NCBI GenBank assembly: GCA_950295325.1
Contig: OX485803.1
Coordinates: 1,054,001 to 1,118,000 of the forward strand
Direction: 5' to 3'
Source: Polytrichum commune
Taxonomy: Eukaryota > Streptophyta > Polytrichopsida > Polytrichales > Polytrichaceae
DNA length: 64,000 bases
Positions 25,108 to 61,337 of the stretch are shown here, one piece after another. The notes under the pieces are model-generated. The model was not told where the DNA came from, searched no databases, and saw only the letters and a list, made by a program, of their open reading frames with translations. The position numbers and the translations under genes are program-made. Every line of letters starts with the position of its first letter. Position 1 is the stretch's first letter.

Positions 25108-25347
25108 TAAGTTCAAGTGAAAACCGCGAGGGTGGGGGAAGCCGGGCGACGGGCAGCGGGCAGCGGGCAGTGGGGGAGAGCCCACTACCTCAGTGCACTG
25201 TAAGGTTAGTGGCTCTCCTCTCTTTTCCTCTGCTCTTCACTTCAATGTAGCAAGCCCTAAGTTGTTCTGCTCACCCTCGTTTGAAACCCTAGCTCCAACT
25301 CCCTGTGGGATTTTCCTCTCGAATTTTTCAATTTGTAGTGCGCAGCA

Positions 25348-26517
25348 ATGGTGGAGATGGAGGAGCAAGAGGCAACACAGGATCCGAAGCTTCTGCTAGC
25401 ACACAAGCTCTTTCTACTGCGCTCACCCGATGTGGAGGACATCGAGAAGTCGACCCTAAAGGATGAGGTGCTATTGCTCATCAAGGCGGACGACATGGCG
25501 GGGTTGTATCAGAGTTCCGCACAGGAGCTGGGATGGGAGATTGACCAGGGAGTGCTGGACGGGATGAACGGAAGAATCGCAGAGGAGCTGAAGAAGTTGG
25601 ACGAGAAGATCACTGATGCGGAGGAAAATCTCGGCGAGAGCGAGGTTCGGGAAGCACTTTTGGCTAAGGCGTTGTTTTACATTCGTGTTGGGGATAAGGA
25701 GAAATCATTGGAGCAGCTGAAAGTGACGGAGGCTAAGACCGTAGCTGTAGGGCAGAAGATGGACTTGGTATTTCATACCCTACGGTTAGGGTTTTTCTAT
25801 CTTGATTTCAATCTCATATCGTTGAATATTGATAAGGCGAAGTCGCTGTTCGATGAGGGAGGTGATTGGGAGAGGAAGAATCGGTTGAAGGTGTATGAGG
25901 GGCTGTACTGCATGGCAACGAGGAATTTCAAGCAAGCGGCAACTCTGTTTTTGGACTCTATCTCTACGTTTACGACTTATGAGCTTTTCTCGTATGATAC
26001 TTTCATTTTTTACTCTGTATTGACCAGCATCATCTCCCTGGACCGTGTTTCCTTGAAGCAGAAAGTGGTGGATGCACCGGAGATTTTGACTGTGATTGGA
26101 AAAATTCCTCATCTCTCCGACTTCATGAATGCCTTGTATGGGTGCCAGTACAAGACATTTTTTGTGGCTTTTGCTGGGTTGACCGACCAGATTAGGTTAG
26201 ACCGCTACTTGCATGCCCATTTCAGATATTACATGCGTGAGGTTCGATCGGTGGCGTATTCTCAGTTCCTTGAATCGTACAAGAGTGTGACTATGGATGC
26301 CATGGCGAAAGCATTCGGAGTGAGTGTCAACTTTTTGGACATCGAGCTCTCGCGCTTTATTGCTGCCGGAAGGCTTAACTGTAAGATTGACAAAGTGGCT
26401 GGAGTGTTGGAGACCAATCGACCTGATGCCAAGAATGCGCTCTACCAGGCTACTATCAAGCAGGGAGACTTCTTACTTAATCGCATACAGAAGCTGTCTA
26501 GAGTTATTGACTTGTAA
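25348..26517 (+). CDS. RPN7: 26S proteasome regulatory subunit RPN7 (PSMD6)
   Basis: An uninterrupted 389-aa frame, matching the usual length of plant RPN7. RPN7 is a PCI-domain subunit of the lid of the 19S regulatory particle, which assembles around RPN3, RPN5, RPN6 and RPN11 and deubiquitinates substrates. Visible segments are an N-terminal helical region with the KLDEKI..AEENLGESEVREA stretch (about residues 75-105), a TPR-like helical array (about 100-230, including YEGLYCMATRNFKQAA and FTTYELFSYDTFIFYSVL), and a C-terminal PCI domain (about 240-350) with AKAFGVSVNFLDIELSRFIAAGRLNCKID and the closing LNRIQKLSRVIDL. The gene has no intron in its coding region. Its upstream region is unusual: a 722-bp transposon ends 240 bp before the ATG, inside a palindrome arm. 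Confidence 0.97.
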   Translation: MVEMEEQEATQDPKLLLAHKLFLLRSPDVEDIEKSTLKDEVLLLIKADDMAGLYQSSAQELGWEIDQGVLDGMNGRIAEELKKLDEKITDAEENLGESEVREALLAKALFYIRVGDKEKSLEQLKVTEAKTVAVGQKMDLVFHTLRLGFFYLDFNLISLNIDKAKSLFDEGGDWERKNRLKVYEGLYCMATRNFKQAATLFLDSISTFTTYELFSYDTFIFYSVLTSIISLDRVSLKQKVVDAPEILTVIGKIPHLSDFMNALYGCQYKTFFVAFAGLTDQIRLDRYLHAHFRYYMREVRSVAYSQFLESYKSVTMDAMAKAFGVSVNFLDIELSRFIAAGRLNCKIDKVAGVLETNRPDAKNALYQATIKQGDFLLNRIQKLSRVIDL

Positions 26518-27750
26518 GGTCATCTTGAGATGATGTTTGTAGGTTTCCAGGCAAGACATCATAACCACAGGGTCCGTCCTCTAGAGAAAAGCCTCCTTAC
26601 TTTGTACAGGCAGCAGCCGATTATAAACTCACGATGGTTGTCAGACCCTCAGTGATAAAGTTTCAATCATATCTTGTGAAATATAAAGTCGACACTTTCG
26701 AATTCTGAGTTTTGTCCTCTGCTCAAGCCCTGTACTGAAGAGCTTATTTGAGGACTTCTTGTGACCCACAAACTTGATTTGATTTCTTCTGCAGGAGACT
26801 TTGAATATATTCAGAGGTTACAGACACTTTGTGTTCTATTTCCGAAACATTGTCATGGGTTACCTTGCCAATGTGTGTAAAGAGTTATCTCAGTGTGTAT
26901 GCATATACTGAATCATCGTAAGTCTCTACTTCATGCTGCAAACTCAACGTTGTGTGACCAGTACATCATCATAAGAATGCTACTTCTGGTTGCGCAAGGT
27001 TACCGCACAAGTGTCGGAAGATCAGCACCCCAGTTCAAGAAAATAAACTTGAACATCAACACATACACAGGAATGGATTTGGCTATGTTTTGAACAGCAT
27101 AAGATAACCTTTAAGCCTAATTGTTACACCTTGGGACCTGACTGGGTGTCCCCTAATTTGCGTGGTGCTTACATGATGTGATCGGTCATGTATTACTTTT
27201 TAAGGTGAGGTTTTCTTAATGTTTTTAGGGCATGCATATCAGGTGTCGTATGCTTGGGTGAAGTGCCGATCCTTCTCTCTCAAGTCCATTGCAATCCAGA
27301 GTACTAAGTTCTCTAGGGTTAAACACAGAGCTGCCAGTGGTGCCAAAAGCTGAAGACATAACATTATTGTACCTACACTGCCAATTTGGAGCTATGAATC
27401 GAGCAGAAATGCACAAGTTAACAATTAGTGAGAGGGGATTCTAAAGGGATACTGGATAATATATGTAAATAATCAACTAGTGAATAAATTGCAGAAATAT
27501 GACATGGACTTACATCCCACACATGTCCCTTGTTGTCAAAATTGTTGTAACTGCTGCCACCGCCATCACACTGGGTGAACCAGCTGTTTCCAAACTAAAC
27601 ATGAGTGTGTGGGGGCAGTGGTGTCCCTATTTAAATCTCTACCCCATTTGCAATCTTAAAACGCCTTACATCCTCATCTGTTTGCTCTGGTGCCCTGTAC
27701 CATTCTCTCCAAACTGTAAAACCTCCGGCCCTTTAAGTTTGTGCTTCGAA
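26518..27750. other. RPN7 3' UTR and intergenic sequence
   Basis: The first few hundred bases after RPN7 are probably its 3' UTR. The remainder has no supported exon. The last few hundred bases before 27751 should include the promoter and 5' UTR of the next gene; an in-frame upstream ATG exists at 27499 but gives an implausible leader. Confidence 0.35.
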
Positions 27751-28876
27751 ATGGAAGGCCTACTCACAAATGTTAGTTCAAGAGTCAAGGTGTTGAGGAG
27801 GTTGCATGCGGGAGCTTCCACCAGCCTGCTATTGAAGCTTGTTGCTGCTGGTGAGTGATTTGAAAACCTTCTTGTTGTGGCCATATCTGGAATGTGTAGG
27901 CATGGTATTGTACTAGAGTCAGTAAAAGTGGTGTTCCATATGAAGGTCAGGCTTTAACATAACCTACGGATGTCTTCCTGATGCAACAGCATTGTGATGT
28001 CCTTTTGGTGTTCTAAAGTATTGGATCGATGTGCAGCCTATTTGTTACCAATGGTTGTGGCAGATTCTCTTCCTATAAGCACCTTTGCCATGGTAAGTAC
28101 TCGATGATCTGACTTTTTCCTTGAGGTGCTTCAAGTTGTTGTATACAATGTGAGAGATTCTTATATTGCTTCTTTTCCTGGTATAATGTGTCTAGGAATA
28201 CATAAATCACTCTGCATCCACAAGGTTCGTTGCATAACTATTTTGTGTGGGGCTTCAAAGCTCAATTCTATTTCATGTTGCCCCTTCTTTTAATGTCTGA
28301 TTCAAACCTCTCATATTCAAATTTTTGGTTGTGTATTCTCTCTCCCAACAATCAGCTGCTTCTAAAATTCTATTCTACAGGCATATCAGCCTGGAGCCAC
28401 TCGAATGGGCTTGAATCGGAGGTTTTTGCAGGCTGAACCTACACTACCACCTTATGACCCAATCAATGGTGAAGTGGAAGTTACTCCTTGCAATTAAATA
28501 CCAATACCTCAGCATCTTTTGCCAAAATTGTCGTTGAGTAGAATTGTATTGCCAAGTAACTTGGCATCTATGGACATTAAGTCAAGCACCAGCTAGCATT
28601 TCATGAATCAACCCATTGCTTTTGATTTAGATTCTGGTGTGCTGCAATTTCTTCCACTAAGCTTTTGTAAACTTGGTAATCAAATGACTTTTAGCTGATT
28701 TGGCACTGTGAGCAGAATGCACAGGAATTGGACCTGTCTGTGAAGGGGGCATATATGTGGAGTGTGCAGTAGGTGGAGTTGTGGGCTGCATGTGCTCCTT
28801 CATCCGAGCATGTGAGCCAGATATCTCTGGGTGCTTCCTGAAGGATGGGAAATCCTCCACCTACTGCGGCTTCTAA
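27751..28876 (+). CDS. Predicted secreted eight-cysteine protein A (novel family)
   Basis: A 134-aa model from four exons: 27751-27850, 28037-28092, 28381-28468 and 28716-28876 (phases 1, 0, 1; all GT-AG). The first two exons encode a basic start followed by a hydrophobic stretch (STSLLLKLVAAAYLLPMVVA), a likely signal peptide with a possible cut after VVA. A short linker with LPISTF and NRRFLQ follows. The last exon is an eight-Cys domain with spacing C-x6-C-x7-C-x7-C-x-C-x5-C-x6-C-x10-C, ending CGF-stop. The gene at 30282-31552 has the same domain, the same (S/L)PI(A/S)T and R-x-(L/F)LQ linker motifs, and the same phase-1 intron before the domain. I know no family with this pattern. The weakest point is the GTGAAG donor at 28469; if it is unused, translation stops at 28497 and lacks the domain. 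Confidence 0.6.
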
Positions 28877-30281
28877 AACTCTTCAGGAAAAGGGAAAGGC
28901 AACAAGAAACAATTTCAGTGAGCCCATTTTCAGTGACCTGTGCCCCTTGCAGTGACCTTGAAAGAACATCCTAGCTATATGCCAGCTATAGCAAATTTCA
29001 CTTTGACCGAAGAGCAGCTATATGTTATTTCTATTTAGAACTATGTTCTTGACAAATGGCAAATACTCCTGTGAGTCCTCCTTGCTCACAGGAAATAGTT
29101 TCCTTTAACAACCTGTAGATACTTGTGTAAATATATGAAAACAAAACATGATTACAAATGCAAGTGATCAAAGACTTCTTGTGACAGCACAGACTGGCTT
29201 GATTGCAGTAATTGGGAAGCTTTCTTTACCTTCTTCTGGTGTATGGGTTGATTGAAACCAAATACCAAGGGGTTAGGACTTGATTGCGAGATTTGACTGC
29301 CCCTAAAATTCTTATATTTAGTGGACATGACCAAGTTCTCCTGCCAACTGGACTGCAAGGGTGGCACTGTACATCATGTTTTCCACAAGAAGGTTTGAGG
29401 TCTCAGACTCTAGTAATGTTTTAAATTGAGCAAGAATCTTTTTGACTAGTGAGAGTGCCTTGTATCCCAACGTTCATAGATGAACAATTTTGTTACATCT
29501 CAAAATGGTAGTACGCGAGATGATTGCCTCCACCAACCCCAAGGTATGATTCCACCCAAAGTACAGATGTGTGGCATTTGAGATATGATACAGTAGCAGC
29601 TCAACTATATAATTCCGTCCTACCCCACCGGATAGTAAAAGTACAAGATAGTGAGGAGTCTGATGGATCAGGTGGTACTGTGGATCTTACAAGTGGCAGG
29701 AATCATCTCATAATCTAAATAAAGTGTAAATCTTCACAATCAAAGTAGGACATGCTGGATCGAATGCATTGCATGCAAATATGGCTGCAATGCCAACGCC
29801 ATTATGAAGCATTGACTTTGCTTCCACTTCGATTGCAATCAAGAATTCCTTCAAAACATACTTTCAAAAACTCAGAGTAGATACGGTTATCACTCACAAT
29901 GGCTAAGTATGTGCAAGTAAATCAAGCAGCTAATCAATTTACAAGGTGAGAAGTAAAATAGTAGTAGATGCAATCTGGTAGTTATATGTACAATCAAGTG
30001 TGAAGTACCACACCAGTTTTTAGGTACAATCTCTGGTGCGATCCTCAGCAGTTACGAGTTCCTTGAGCTCTGCACCTTCCCCTCCAAATTTTTAATCAAG
30101 TGGAGAAGTACGTGTGGCAGCCATGCGTACACTGTGAACTCACTATGAAACTTGAATCTGCAACCTGTCTCACCACCATGCAATCCCCCCCAGGGGTCAG
30201 TAATATTTCAGGGAAGCTTTTTCCTTTTCTTTACTGATCTGTAGTTCTGCCCATTGAGGAGTCTCCGGACTCTTGAGGACC
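28877..30281. other. Interval between the two eight-Cys genes
   Basis: No exon with the eight-Cys signature is present. Frames at 29152-29367 (-) and 29524-29718 (+) have no motif. The right end should hold the promoter of gene B. Confidence 0.35.
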
Positions 30282-31552
30282 ATGAATATGGCTACTAGAG
30301 GTTATACTGTGAAATGGATGCTTGCAGTCGTGGCGATTTGGTTCCTGGTTTTTACTCGTATGTTTTTCCAAGTAAACCCATTTTTGTGAAATGGTATGAA
30401 AATTTGTCCTCACAGAATTTACATTCATTAGAGTGGAATAGAATTAATCAACTGTGGGTTTGTTGGACAGAGGAAGCAGTGGTGAGCTCCAGATTGCTTG
30501 AAGAGGAGTCACCCATTGCTACTTCAGAGTACACAGGTCGCTCGCTGTTGCAGAGTAAGTGCTCCAGTAGCCCTTGACCTATATTTTCTGATGAGTTTGC
30601 TTCAGTCTTCGTATGAATGCAGTTTGCTGTTATTCAAAATCCTAGATGACACCTGCATGGAGCTTTGTCTAGGTCCCGGGGTGGCAACTCTCCCCTTTGG
30701 AACAACTGGTGTGTCAAGAACTGAGTAGGAGCAGTGTTTCTAAAGCAGGGGTCACCATGATCCAGACCCCTATTTGTTTAATTTTATTTCTTACTTTCAA
30801 GAGAATTTCATAAAATTTCATGGATTTTAGAGCCAAGTTAAAAATGCTTATGTTACGAAAGCAACTTCAAAACAGTGCTTCTTACAAAAATGTTTTAGCA
30901 GCTCCTAGTCAAGTTTTGTAGACGCCAGTGCCTGCAGGTGCTACATATTGTTGCCACCCTGACCTTGTCTGTAATCATGTGTTTGCTATCACTCAAATGC
31001 AATTTGCTGTCCCTTGAGTATTTAGATTGCAGCTGCATGGAGACTTTCTCTTCACTTCTGTGTTTGCTTTCACTCGGATGAATTTTTATGAGGAATGCAA
31101 CTTCCATTTTCACTTGGATGCAATCTTCTGCAACTTGGTATCTTGGATTGTAGCCGCATGGAGCCTTTCTCTTTGATCTTGTGTTTGCTATCACTTGGAT
31201 GCAAATTGCTATCGATTGGATGCAACTTCATGTCACTTGGAACCTTAGATTGCAGCTGCATGGAGACTTTCTTTTCAATCATGTGGTTGCTATCACTTGG
31301 ATGCAATTTGCTGTCGCTTTGAATCTCAAATTACAGCTGCATGGAGCCCTTGTGTTGAATGATGTGTTTGATGTGGGACTGGCAGCGTGCTGGCCAGGAA
31401 TGCGTGTGAACTGCCCCCCGGACATGCAGGTGGAATGCGAGGTTGGAGGTGTGGGAGGGTGTGACTGCCTGGCTATGGCGTCATGCGTGCCACATGTCTC
31501 TGGCTGCTTCGTGGTTGTTGATGGCATGGCCATCCGGTCCTGTGGCTTTTGA
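30282..31552 (+). CDS. Predicted secreted eight-cysteine protein B (novel family)
   Basis: A 108-aa model from three exons: 30282-30357, 30471-30554 and 31386-31552, both introns in phase 1 with good sites (GTATGT, GTAAGT). Exon 1 is a textbook signal peptide: MNMATRGYTVKWM, then a hydrophobic core LAVVAIWFLVF. Exon 2 is an acidic pro-region containing SPIATSE and GRSLLQ. Exon 3 is the eight-Cys domain, C-x7-C-x7-C-x7-C-x-C-x5-C-x6-C-x11-C, with conserved VEC-x-VGGV-x-GC-x-C and SGCF motifs and a final CGF-stop. It aligns with protein A along the domain and at the linker motifs. It lacks the CC pair of lipid-transfer proteins and the pattern of snakins, EPF and RALF peptides as I know them. 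It was found only by joining short exons. Intron 2 (831 bp) contains a minisatellite. Confidence 0.65.
30960..31350. repeat. Degenerate minisatellite in intron 2 of gene B
   Basis: At least four imperfect units sharing gcagctgcatggag (about 31031, 31152, 31254, 31335; spacings 121, 102 and 81 bp), each followed by tgtttgctatcacttggatgcaa-type sequence. On the minus strand the units read as a repeated peptide, SMQLQSK and HPSDSKH, over two overlapping frames. I interpret it as intronic repeat DNA, because it lies inside a well-supported intron on the other strand. Confidence 0.7.
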
Positions 31553-41700: not shown

Positions 41701-43873
41701 ATGGGGCAATTCTTTGGAAAATTGTTGTCGAGTATTTCGTGGGGTACAAAGAACTATGGCATTCTCATGGTCGGCCTTGATAACGCAGGTGCCACCTATT
41801 TCTGGACACATCCAACTTGTTTAGTAGGATGCTTTGTGAAAACATTGTGATATTCATTCTTATGTGGAGTAATCTTTTGATGATCTCATTCCAGATTAAT
41901 TGCACTCAAGGCAGAAACTCTAGATTGCTGGAAAGGGGACAGCATAATTTGCTTGTCTCATTTTAGGGTTTTCTGTGTCTCCCCATGAAATCTTGTCCAT
42001 GGACCACATGGATAAGTTTCGATCTATATTTTGGCAAGTCGGTTGTATGTTGGTGCTGGACATTTATATTGCAGTCCTCAGAAATATCTCATGGGGAAGT
42101 CGGTAAATCTGTGCTACTGTCCTGTGGGATATGTTTCCTCAGGCACTTTGACACAGGAGAAAATTAGGCAGCAATTTGTTACAGGAGAAATGACATGAAC
42201 CAGAAGTATGAAGTTAGTGCACTGCAATCTAAGGCAGGGAATTAAACTTGCAAATCTTGTCAACAAAGTTGAGTGAACAGGAGCTGTCGTGAATATCCAT
42301 AACTTTTTTTCCTGATGAATTTTGTGTTATCCTGCTTAGGTAAGACAACAATCCTGTATAAAATGAAAATGGGAGAGCTGGTCACCACGATACCAACAAT
42401 TGGATTCAACGTGGAGTCAATTCAGTACCAGAACGTGAGCTTCACTGTGTGGGATGTGGGAGGCCAGGATAAGATTCGACCACTCTGGCGCCATTATTTT
42501 GACAACACACAGGTCTGTCACTCTGTCAAGCCTGCTTTGGTTTTCTTGTTGGCCTTACCTCTTCTCTTGATCTACGCCTTTGGTCACTCATCACCTTTCT
42601 GTGGCAAGGGTTATTATAATTTCATTGATCTGGCTGTCATTGAACAATTAGTATAATGCTAAATTTGCAACTTTTTTGCAGTTCCCTGAGAGTTGTGCTT
42701 TTTTAGAACTGTCATAACAAGTGTAGCTGTATTGGGGCCGTTATACAATATGAGGGGTAAGATTTTGTATTGTTGGGTTCTTCAATTTGAGGGTGAAGAG
42801 GGTTGCAGCCTACAGTTATGGGCTCAAAGAGTATGAACTAGGTAAAAGGGTGGCTTAAACCCAAGGCCTTAACAGGGATCCCATGGGAACTCCAAGGTTA
42901 AGCTGCGTAAGGCCGATATAAGACTTCCGCTGCACCCTACCACCTATGGTCCACCCAATCATAGTGGGAGTAGCCGGGTGAATTGGATGATTTCAACCAT
43001 GTGGGAACATAGGGGTTTGCTGTTGGGGGAGATAGGTGTTGGTTGGCTAGTTTGGGCCCGTTCAAGGTGTTCATCTTTGAAAGGAGGCAATGGGTCTTCG
43101 TGGGCCCTCTTATTCTTATAATGCATGTTTTGGGATGACATATAGACTTGGACCAACTCAAAATGAAGCAACACCATAATTCATGGCAGTGGCAATATTG
43201 GAGTCGTCTTTTTGTTGGAAACGAATTAGGTAATTGATGCAAGTAGCCTTGCCATGTGCTGTAGTAGGCCCTACCTTGCTGTAACCACACGTGTCCATTA
43301 CCGAACATAGTGGTTAGGCCATGGTAGGGTCATCTATTATAGGTGATTATGTACCTCGTATCCAAACAAGTCAGCAAAAGTTGCTTGGCCTCACTATTAC
43401 GGAACCCCAATTTTCAGGGCTTACCTAGCATCTGACATATTTTCGTCTTTGAAGACACAGATATTCACACATTTTAGGATTGAAAGTGCACAGGCCAACC
43501 TAGAAGTACTGTCAAGGCAAGTCTTTACATCCACCACTAACTTTATCCTGGTTTACTTGTTTCCTCACATGTGCAGGGTTTAATTTTTGTGGTAGACAGC
43601 AATGACAAGGATAGAATTGCAGAAGCAAGAGACGAGCTTCACAAGCTTCTACAGAATTCTGAACTGAGTAAAGCCAAAGTACTGGTGTTTGCTAACAAAC
43701 AGGACCTGTCGAATGTGCTGAGCCCCACAGAGGTGACTGAGAAACTCTACCTTGGACGATTGGCACAGAAGGTGTGGTATGTGCAAGCTTGCAGTGCCAC
43801 GACTGGTGAGGGCCTTCATGAAGGGCTGGACTGGCTCGCCGCTGCACTTAAGGAAAAGAATGGAGCCAAATGA
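41701..43873 (+). CDS. ARF-family small GTPase
   Basis: A 185-aa protein from exons 41701-41788, 42340-42512 and 43577-43873 (phases 1 and 0). ARF GTPases recruit coat proteins and lipid-modifying enzymes to Golgi and endosomal membranes. Visible features are Gly2 for myristoylation in [10 protein letters not shown]-loop GLDNAGKT, split by intron 1; switch I with TTIPTIGFN; switch [29 protein letters not shown]; guanine specificity motif NKQD; and SATTGEGL near the C-terminus. It is close to ARF1 in the switch regions but diverged in the C-terminal half ([15 protein letters not shown]) and has an unusual N-terminal helix ([11 protein letters not shown]) where ARF1 is basic. I therefore do not assign a subclass. 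The first donor, GTGCCA, is weak but is required for the P-loop. Confidence 0.93.
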
Positions 43874-46742: not shown

Positions 46743-48123
46743 CTAATACATCATCTGCACATTGGAGTTGTAAAGAGCCCCAGGCTGGAAGTACTCCGGG
46801 ATGGCTCTCCTTGCAACAGCCGTGTGGCCATTCAACTTGGCAGTGATTTGGATGTCATAGGGCCCCTTGAATGGCTGCCCGGAGTAACAGATCAACATCC
46901 AACTTGCTCCCCAGTTGTGTTGCATCGGCTGCCAGTAATTGCTACCGGCCATTCGAACAGACACACTTGCCAAATCCCCAGGTCCTCCTTGGTACTTGAC
47001 GGTGATGGAGAGCCAGTAAGCGGACGATCCCGGGTCCACCTTGAAGGCGATGTTCTGCCTGGGGTACTGACATGGCACCCTCTTGTACAGGATGTTGTAC
47101 AATCCAATGTTCCGAAGCTCCCCATCCCTCCCGGGGAGAGCCATGTTGGTGATGGCGGCCCCACTCAGGTCGAAGGCAGGCTGGTTGGTGCTGCAGTAGG
47201 TTCCCCCTGGGCACTGATCTGTGATCACAATTCGGGTGGGCTGGGCTTTGCAGCTTGGGTAAGTGCACTTCACATCGTAGCATTGGCCGCATCCCTTACC
47301 GCCTTGGAAGATAGGAGTGTTAGCAGCAGCCACTTTGGCTGTGTACGGTGTGCCTGTGAGCTCAGTGTAACCACATGCTCCACCTGAACATCATCAAAAC
47401 AACACCGAAATTAGATCTGGACCAAGAGGTTCTGGGCCCTGAAGATCTAAGATCACCTCTCTTTAGAATCAAAGTATGTTTGTAGATGGTGCCAGATAAA
47501 ATATAATCGAAGTGCTTTTATTATTAAGCGAGACATCGGGATAAGGTGTGCGGGTGTTAATTGGTTACTTTTCTCAATCGGACACCTATATTTGATGTAT
47601 GTGTGATTCGGTCACGATCAAAGAACAAAACACCATAAATACACATGTTTAAAACAGATTGAACTACGTCTTTGTATTTTCTTTTAAGTACTCCACACTC
47701 AATTTGAGTAAACACAATTGAGAGGACCTACTATTCAGGTGATAAATCAACAAACATGCACTGCCAACATCCAGAACTGATTTCTAATCTGGATTTTGCT
47801 GATGTCTCATGGAGAACATGCAAAACGAACTGATTAATACCCACAGAAAAGTAGTACACCTACCACAACTCTACACATTGGGCTAGAGGTGATGAACTCT
47901 AGGCCCTTGTGATGGGGCACACAGTGAGACGATGGCAAACACAGTGTAAAGTGAATTGGAGGTTACCGCTTGAGCCTTCTCCGTAAGGGTCACCATACCA
48001 GGTGGCATGTCCTGCAATCCACCCGGCATTGTAGCCATACATAACTAGAAAGTTTCTGGCCAGGGCACCAGGTAGACCCGCAAGGCCCAGGAGTAGCAAC
48101 ACCATCAAGAGTGCCATCGCCAT
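46743..48123 (-). CDS. Beta-expansin 1
   Basis: A 265-aa secreted cell-wall loosening protein from two exons, 48123-47967 and 47383-46743 (phase 1 intron). The signal peptide (MAMALLMVLLLLGLAGLPGALA) precedes a GH45-like domain starting GHATWYGDP, then GGACGY, GKGCGQCYDVKC and an ITDQCPGG-x-C segment. Domain 2 is CBM63-like and starts near VPCQYP, with conserved YW, HNWGASW and the closing GPYDIQITAKLNG. The PCQYP motif and length fit beta-expansins. The motif usually written HFD reads AFD here (QPAFDLSG); the Asp is kept. Expansins bind cellulose and matrix polymers and loosen walls without hydrolysis. It shares a nearly identical exon tract with expansin 2 but lacks that gene's second intron. 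Confidence 0.95.
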
Positions 48124-59420: not shown

Positions 59421-61337
59421 TTAATACCGCAATTGCACATTGGAATTGTATTGTGCACCCGGCTGGAAGTACTGGGGAATGGCTCGCCTGGCAACCACCG
59501 TGTGGCCATTTAACCTGGCAGTGACCCTGATGTCATACGGCCCCTTGAATGGCTTCCCGGAGTAGCTGATGAGCATCCAATTGGCCCCCCAGTTGTGTTG
59601 CATCGGCTGCCAGTATCTGTTACCGGCCATTCGAACAGACACACTTCCCACATCCCCAGGTCCTCCTTGGTACTTGACAGTGATGGAGAGCCAGTAAGCG
59701 GACGACCCCGGGTCCACCTTGAAGGCGATGTTCTGCCTGGGGTACTGACATGGCACCCTCTTGTACAGGATGTTGTACAATCCAATGTTCCGAAGCTCCC
59801 CATCCCTCCCGGGGAGAGCCATGCTGGTGATGGCGGCCCCACTCAGGTCGAAGGCAGGCTGGTTGGAGCTGCAGAAAGTTCCCCCGGGGCAGAAATCTGT
59901 AATCACCACTCGGGTGGGTTGCCATCTGCAGCTGGGGTATGTGCACTTCACCTGCACGTGAGTCAGATGTTAGAGCTTAGAGCATGACCACACATTGGAC
60001 ACCAAACCCTAACACAAAGGTTTGCTGAAATAGTCCCTCTATATGTCCCACACATTCAATCCATATGAGCGCTGTAAATTGTGAGTCCCATGATCAACAC
60101 TAGTATCTTACAGTACATAAGGTGTTACGTAAGTATAGTTGAAGCTAAAGTCCTAGTTGGTGTTATGTTGTGAGATATGAGTGTTGATGTCCTTTAACGA
60201 GAGGAGTTGAAATTCACTCCTCTAAAGTTACATATTTGAAAGAGCGGAAGGCGTTAGAAGGGAGAGAGTACCTCTAAATTGGTGATTAACGAAAACGTGT
60301 GAAAGCCTATTTTGTTAAAAGTTCACCTTTTTAATTGGTGGTATGGGTTCAGAGGCGTCCGTGTTGAGATTGTGTGGTTATGCTCGTAGCAACTAGAAAC
60401 CAAAGGAAAATCTGGGCCTGTCTTGCTTCGGGGTCACTGAGGAGTTTCTGTGTGAGTAAAGTATATCCTTATTCTTGTCATTGGAAAATCGCCCATTGAT
60501 TTCAAAACAATGAAAAACAAATTGGGAATAAGTGTTTGTAGGGGGATCCCATCCCTCTCCGCCCACTTTTTCATTGGACCTCCGCAGTTCGATATTCACT
60601 GCTCACCCTCTACCCTACCTGATTAGTTGTCAGTGAAAATAATCCAAACAATGGGGGTTACCTCTTTTAAGATCTCTGCAAGAATGTTAGAGTGCGACAT
60701 GATAGAGGTTCAGCCTTTTTAATCTCTACTCACTCTACTCCGTAGGGTTCGCATGGTAGAAGTGACCTACCCCAAGAAACTAAGGACAGAGAGATGGGTT
60801 CCTCTGCAGCACTCTACCCAAGCGAATTACATTTATATTTGCATTCACAGAGAGTTGGTAGAAGTGGGAGCTAGAACTTACTGCATAGCATTGGCCGCAT
60901 CCCTTTCCGTTCTGGAAGATGGCCCTACTCCCAGCTGCAATTCTGGGACCATAGGGAGTACCTGTGAGCTCCTTGTACCCACATGCTCCACCTGCACAAT
61001 TACATCAATTCGATGTGTTCACATGATGCATCCCACCACTTGAACATTCAGGATTCATTTTGCACCAATTTGAGCCTGGAATTGAAACTTTGCAGAAATC
61101 TTGCTGGGGTGATACAACATGAGATACAACATTTGCCTCATCAAGGAATTGCAAGAAGATTTGAATGATTAGATTACCGCTTGAGCCTTCGCCGTGGGGG
61201 TCGCCATACCAAGTTGCATGCCCAGCAATCCAGCCAGCATTGTAACCCATAGCGGCCAAGCTACCAACGGCCAGGGCACCAGGTAGCCCCGCAAAGAGAA
61301 GAACTAGCAACACTGTGACCACCACGTATCCCACCAT
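59421..61337 (-). CDS. Beta-expansin 2
   Basis: A 266-aa secreted wall-loosening protein from three exons: 61337-61178, 60991-60882 and 59951-59421 (phases 1 and 0). Signal peptide MVGYVVVTVLLVLLFAGLPG, then GHATWYGDPHGEGSSG, GGACGY, GKGCGQCYAVKC, ITDFCPGGTFC, QPAFDLSG (AFD in place of the usual HFD), VPCQYP, and a complete domain 2 ending FQPGAQYNSNVQLRY. The second intron (59952-60881, 930 bp) falls between GQCYA and VKC, where expansin 1 has continuous coding sequence. The bases around 59659-59867 are almost identical to 46980-47188. The paralogues share promoter-side repeats, so they arose by local duplication. Confidence 0.95.

Follow-up and report, generated by a model that had tools for sequence, protein, structure and literature searches.

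The non-specific lipid-transfer proteins (nsLTPs) are secreted proteins of land plants with eight Cys residues, one C-x-C among them, in the order C..C..CC..CxC..C..C, which places two Cys after the C-x-C; the Snakin/GASA proteins carry a twelve-Cys C-terminal domain. For the peptide RALF23, a review of plant subtilases (PMC13082318) states that the subtilase AtS1P/SBT6.1 cleaves directly after RRIL, and it gives RxxL/RxLx as the motif of this enzyme. Here we compare with such systems two neighboring genes, A and B, in a 64,000-nucleotide stretch of Polytrichum commune DNA (the window, C1:1054001-1118000), and three related genes elsewhere in the genome, called C1, C3, and C6. All five gene structures are predictions from DNA, and their products, of 99-134 residues, end in a short domain with eight Cys. 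Our best explanation, to which we give a probability of roughly 0.45, is that the products are secreted pre-pro-peptides from which a subtilase would release apoplastic peptides, most likely signals.

When all six frames of the window were searched with a relaxed form of the eight-Cys spacing, it was found at exactly two places, the last exons of A and B, and it did not occur in 60 surrogates generated from the window with a first-order Markov model. Gene A has the spacing 6-7-7-1-5-6-10, gene B 7-7-7-1-5-6-11. The two domains are 45% identical; blastn between the A and B genes gave no match up to E 10. Protein searches of the genome, run with each of the five single domains as query, place three further intact loci at C6:24977916-24978074 (forward strand), C1:898174-898332 (forward strand), and C3:2650235-2650393 (reverse strand), in which the Cys spacing is identical or almost so and the CGF-stop end is kept. 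The genome comprises 407.8 Mb in 64 contigs, those above 42 Mb being C1 (77.9 Mb), C2 (70.3), C3 (59.2), C4 (59.1), C5 (52.9), C6 (44.7), and C7 (42.1). Like the secreted plant Cys-rich peptides as a broad class, all five proteins are short and have a C-terminal domain in which the number of Cys is even; their common framework is C-x(5-7)-C-x7-C-x7-C-x-C-x(4-5)-C-x(6-7)-C-x(10-11)-C-G-F-stop. The best E values between loci were 5e-10 for C1-C3, 1.5e-5 for A-C6, and 3.5e-5 for A-B, followed by 9e-5 for A-C3, 1.2e-4 for C1-C6, and 4.5e-4 to 6.6e-4 for B-C1. Domain identities among the five are only 28-47%, and we therefore take the genes for old duplicates; A and B, judged by their sequences, are an old pair.

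At least five predicted intact members are dispersed over contigs C1, C3, and C6; the search scores the best candidates only, and family counts are lower bounds. A preliminary description of the window had proposed a local tandem family. The small Cys-rich family stands, as does the neighborhood of A and B, but its members are spread over the genome and are not only local. A decayed copy lies at C1:922429-922569; the intact C1 gene, about 24 kb away, is 64% identical to it over 47 residues. The copy contains one TGA and one TAG, and in the frame that was read its first two and last Cys are replaced by Tyr and its third by a stop; blastn between this copy and the intact gene gave no match up to E 1e-3. 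Partial domains only were seen at two places, C3:35478512 (E 0.004) and, with two stops, C5:28531459 (E 0.09); these are possible relics and are not counted as members. Two lower-scoring places without the full Cys pattern were dropped, C1:74439163 (E 0.51), which has only C-x-C-x5-C, and C5:51044911 (E 0.99), which contains stops.

Gene A (27751-28876, forward strand) is predicted to have four exons with intron phases 1-0-1 and to encode 134 residues. Its first exon (27751-27850) begins with the ATG and the start of the leader and ends in phase 1 at the donor CTG/gtgagt, where the slash marks the exon border. Exon 2 (28037-28092, acceptor gtgcag/CCT, donor ATG/gtaagt) carries the remaining hydrophobic leader (LVAAAYLLPMVV) and the motif LPIST and ends in phase 0; exon 3 (28381-28468, acceptor ctacag/GCA, donor ATG/gtgaag) holds the linker with NRRFLQ and ends in phase 1. 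The eight-Cys domain with its CGF-stop is encoded by exon 4 (28716-28876, acceptor gagcag/AAT), which resembles the four other loci. A possible TATA box, TATTTAAAT, is located at 27628-27636, about 115 bp upstream of the start codon.

Gene B (30282-31552, forward strand) would encode 108 residues in three exons with phases 1-1. The ATG and the hydrophobic leader (MLAVVAIWFLVF) are in exon 1 (30282-30357, donor CTC/gtatgt), the linker with SPIAT and GRSLLQ is in exon 2 (30471-30554, acceptor ggacag/AGG, donor AGA/gtaagt), which ends in phase 1, and the eight-Cys domain with its CGF-stop is in exon 3 (31386-31552, acceptor tggcag/CGT), which resembles the A, C1, and C6 loci. Intron 2 (30555-31385, same strand) is 831 bp long and contains diverged tandem repeats at 31114-31370, with units of 81-102 bp and 78-83% matches; a frame open through part of these repeats into the domain exon gives an unspliced frame of 132 residues. 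The introns of A and B have GT at 5/5 donors and AG at all acceptors. The preliminary description had placed two same-strand genes for proteins of 134 and 108 residues here, and their coordinates, exon borders, and lengths were reproduced, together with the eight-Cys spacing and Gly-Phe-stop end in both domain exons and the N-terminal hydrophobic stretches of A and B. Its remark that the two genes share the splice phase before the domain extends to all five intact genes, in each of which this intron is in phase 1, and its remark that every exon is shorter than 170 bp holds across the five models (34-167 bp).

Leader exons were selected from enumerated models with a crude score, devised for this purpose, in which splice consensus and hydropathy count in a model's favor. 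On this score exons 1 and 2 of gene A rank first among 31 models. A first enumeration with shorter upstream sequence put the C1 leader at the top of 7 models and gave no good leader for C3 or C6; both were found when more upstream sequence was included, and the chosen C6 leader tied for first of 32 models (two start codons). Like A, the C1, C3, and C6 models have four exons with phases 1-0-1. Outside the domain, C1 and C3 are alike by eye (MHARDVMGVLLLLLVATEATRKY... versus MARWQSRDVFGCLLLLLVITEAGRKW...; ARRFLTP versus ARRLLTP), and this likeness in leader and linker supports both gene models.

The codons of the domains were also compared. Over the 10 gene pairs, compared from the second Cys onward, differences at the first, second, and third codon positions number 204, 190, and 293 in 450 aligned codons; in 9/10 pairs most differences fall at the third position, the exception being B-C3 (26, 21, 23). 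Synonymous differences occur in 107 of the 177 aligned codons that specify the same residue. Each of the 11 invariant columns, which comprise six Cys, two Gly, and one each of Pro, Ser, and Phe, uses more than one codon, and the columns of the first and sixth Cys fail to be invariant only because these Cys of C6 are displaced in the alignment. The 10 pairs are not independent, and we therefore do not combine them into one probability. The genes appear to be real, with constraint acting on the protein, and we consider it very probable that the family is a real one of secreted, Cys-rich proteins. The preliminary description had proposed a family of small Cys-rich extracellular proteins, and the five intact loci support it.

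Hydrophobic leaders were judged solely by Kyte-Doolittle means over 12 residues. The best such mean starting within the first 40 positions is 2.37-3.37 over the five proteins, and in 5/5 the N-terminal stretch exceeds the best downstream stretch. Between leader and domain, every linker contains one R-x-[LF]-L: RRFL in A, RSLL in B, RRLL in C6, RRFL in C1, and RRLL in C3. When each hand-bounded linker was shuffled 20,000 times, the motif arose in a fraction of 0.010-0.043 of the shuffles. Earlier, LPIST/SPIAT had been named beside R-x-(L/F)L as a shared linker motif; the latter is common to all five, but LPIST/SPIAT occurs only in A and B and, being absent from the C1, C3, and C6 linkers, was rejected as a mark of the family. 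A cut at R-x-[LF]-L would leave a predicted peptide of 56-79 residues. The five domains are acidic, with a net charge of -2 to -3 and an isoelectric point (pI) of 4.4-5.4, a charge unlike that of a cationic membrane-lytic peptide. The C6, C1, and C3 domains have one or two N-x-S/T sequons each, and in every one of the three a sequon lies in the last loop.

We searched the Pfam library with five domains and five full proteins, NCBIfam with five domains, and the PDB sequences with the single domains B, C3, and C6 and a five-row profile. No significant match was found in any of the three; within these libraries, nothing contradicts the earlier statement that none of the plant peptide families it listed has this spacing. 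The names that appeared below threshold were taken as chance, both in the family libraries (Sublancin, E 0.8, for A; RALF, 0.12-0.13, for C6; Pkip-1, 0.16, for C1; zf-HC3, 0.085, for C3) and in the PDB (1b8w, 0.13, and 8cxo, 0.88, for C3; 1hpi, 0.68, and 5yn5, 0.69, for C6; 8r0d, 6.6, for B). Prokaryote genomes scanned with domain B gave no relative, and phages, for which domain A was the sole query, yielded a single match at E 3 and no convincing relative. A match of domain B in viral contigs (L027) was rejected as chance, being a Gly/Val-rich stretch without the Cys pattern in a GC-rich contig. At the level of titles and abstract openings, the literature searched gave no description of the eight-Cys motif. 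The family is apparently unnamed, that is, absent from Pfam, NCBIfam, the PDB sequences, and the literature searched.

RALF (PF05498) was the only recurrent name below threshold, with 13.7-13.9 bits for C6 against a cut-off of 22; the Pfam search gave no RALF score for A, B, C1, or C3, and none of the five loci was among the 10 matches listed in a whole-genome search with PF05498. The resemblance lies in the leader, the pro-region, and the placing of R-R-x-L (or G-R-M-L) before a Cys-rich peptide at the C-terminus. Five RALF loci exceed the cut-off in this genome, four with RRML and one with GRML ahead of the Cys-rich part. R-R-x-L of the RALF type is present in A, C6, C1, and C3, and B has R-S-L-L, but this processing motif is not family-specific. 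The genome's own RALFs have four Cys after the motif, whereas the new family has eight in 5/5, and with the one score, that of C6, below cut-off, RALF membership was rejected. For EPF (PF17181, cut-off 27 bits) none of the five gave a score, and none of the loci was among the 7 matches listed genome-wide. Three of the four EPF loci over cut-off were read and have HRLLVG (two) or RRWLVG (one) shortly before the first Cys, so that EPF/EPFL precursors resemble the new family in a Cys-rich C-terminal part preceded within a few residues by RLLV or RRWL. They differ in ending with C-K-C or C-Q-C near the C-terminus and in their other spacing, and membership in EPF was likewise rejected.

Compared with the nsLTP motif, the new domains share eight Cys with one C-x-C, but their order is C..C..C..CxC..C..C..C, with no CC in 5/5 and three Cys after the C-x-C. 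None of the five domains or full proteins matched LTP in Pfam, in searches where the HMMER filters discard most matches above E 0.1, and membership among the nsLTPs or eight-cysteine-motif (8CM) proteins was rejected because the order does not fit that motif. Snakin/GASA was rejected on eight Cys and no Pfam GASA match. No Pfam defensin family matched any of the five, and the single defensin-like PDB match was 1b8w, for C3 only.

The R-x-[LF]-L site has the layout of the sites in the genome's own RALF and EPF precursors, and for this reason we favor a subtilase-released apoplastic peptide; the likeness is an analogy of layout, not homology. A and B would be two of five intact genes for pre-pro-peptides. 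The N-terminal 20-45 residues or so, as suggested by hydropathy, would form a signal peptide that directs the product into the secretory pathway. A subtilase of the SBT6.1/S1P type may then cut after R-[RS]-[LF]-L and free the C-terminal peptide; from the analogy, release at this site seems reasonably likely. The conservation of the Cys points to four disulfides that would fold the C-terminal 51-54 residues, with the last loop bearing a potential N-glycosylation site in 3/5 members. Least certain is the final step, in which the acidic folded peptide would pass between cells as an apoplastic signal and be read by a surface receptor, and we put such a signaling role at slightly under even odds. 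The preliminary description had left a choice between an extracellular peptide and a wall protein; the product is probably secreted, as it had supposed, and to this we add an R-x-(L/F)L that looks like an SBT6.1/S1P-type pro-peptide site.

Several observations weigh against this interpretation. The leader of gene A stands out narrowly, at 2.37 versus 2.07 in its own domain. R-x-[LF]-L is short, was picked after the linkers had been inspected, and lies anywhere from 2 to 27 residues ahead of the domain. The C6 spacing is 5-7-7-1-4-7-10, with the first and sixth Cys shifted, and the C6 model needs a GC-AG intron. The chosen C3 leader was only fifth of 45 models and was preferred for the match between its second exon and the one of C1. 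Some pairs match weakly (A-C1, E 0.05-0.06; C3-C6, 0.64-0.70; B-C6, 0.76-1.43), and no B-C3 match was reported in the genome searches with single domains; for these pairs, membership depends on links via further members and on the shared spacing and intron phase. The AlphaFold2 models of the two window domains showed no usable fold to set beside the helical fold and lipid cavity of the nsLTPs, with a predicted local distance difference test score (pLDDT) of 38 and a predicted template modeling score (pTM) of 0.20. Apoplastic Cys-rich proteins also serve in defense, inhibition, and wall functions.

The last of these points leads to the strongest competing explanation, a secreted defense protein, that is, an antimicrobial peptide or an inhibitor of proteases or hydrolases acting in the apoplast after the same processing. 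Many plant defense peptides are small, secreted, Cys-rich, and multi-copy, and the present family is small, probably secreted, Cys-rich, and multi-copy with a decayed duplicate, its linkers and loops diverging while the Cys are kept. The usual antimicrobial peptides, however, are cationic, and these domains are acidic; moreover, there is no significant Pfam match to an inhibitor or defensin family, and the intact copies found, at least five, do not amount to a large expansion. We regard a defense function as rather unlikely. A small structural protein of the cell wall or surface, held by disulfides and sugars, would suit the potential N-glycosylation sites in the domain of 3/5 members, and expansin-domain frames occur in the same window, though nearness alone means little. 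No typical Pro-, Tyr-, or Gly-rich repeat was seen by eye in the five sequences, and a pro-peptide-like site is present in 5/5. We regard a structural role as distinctly unlikely.

A shade less probable still is a highly diverged nsLTP, EPF, RALF, or defensin-like protein missed by the profiles. The sub-threshold RALF score of C6 and the weak match of C3 to the defensin-like peptide 1b8w are what such a relative might show, but the other four members have no RALF score, the RALF and EPF searches of the genome find their own members with the five loci absent among the matches listed, and three Cys on either side of the C-x-C with no CC is unlike the nsLTP motif. That the frames are open by chance, or are pseudogenes, we hold to be very improbable. 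The decayed copy on contig C1, with its two stops, means that some copies of the family are dead; on the other hand, every one of the 11 invariant columns shows synonymous change, splice borders and phases agree across the five loci, and none of the 60 surrogates yielded the spacing, all of which speaks against this explanation.

Other features of the window were noted. Upstream of gene A by 1.2 kb, and like it on the forward strand, lies a frame (25339-26514) in which RPN7, PCI, and RPN7/PSMD6 C-terminal domains were recognized, as in a 26S proteasome subunit. Two expansin-type frames (Expansin_C, DPBB_1) are at 46746-47390 and 59424-59969 on the reverse strand, about 12 kb apart, and are perhaps a duplicated pair. 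Two forward-strand frames at 42303-43870 match ADP-ribosylation factor (Arf) and are probably exons of one gene, and a frame at 1079-1495, also forward, matches part of protein phosphatase 2C. Elsewhere, the small contig C8 (146.6 kb) holds a frame over the TIGR01281 cut-off (light-independent protochlorophyllide reductase, chlL/bchL). If this is a plastid chlL, it would indicate a land plant without flowers, and a set of seven chromosomes would be in keeping with a polytrichoid moss.

Most known plant peptide signals have been worked out in flowering plants, and new Cys-rich peptide families appear in many plant lineages. Because such families are frequent, the find is a good one but not startling unless a role is shown. 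The boldest form of our proposal, in which the genes belong to a so far unnamed family of peptide hormones in non-flowering land plants, with an eight-Cys framework of a new kind, SBT6.1-type release, and a cell-surface receptor, we consider doubtful as a whole. Exons of 34-167 bp are easily missed by gene finders, and for this reason the family may be under-annotated elsewhere. If the favored explanation is true, a constrained five-gene family with its own Cys framework would be a concrete candidate for an unrecognized extracellular signal in a non-flowering plant, and five intact genes are few enough for a complete knock-out.

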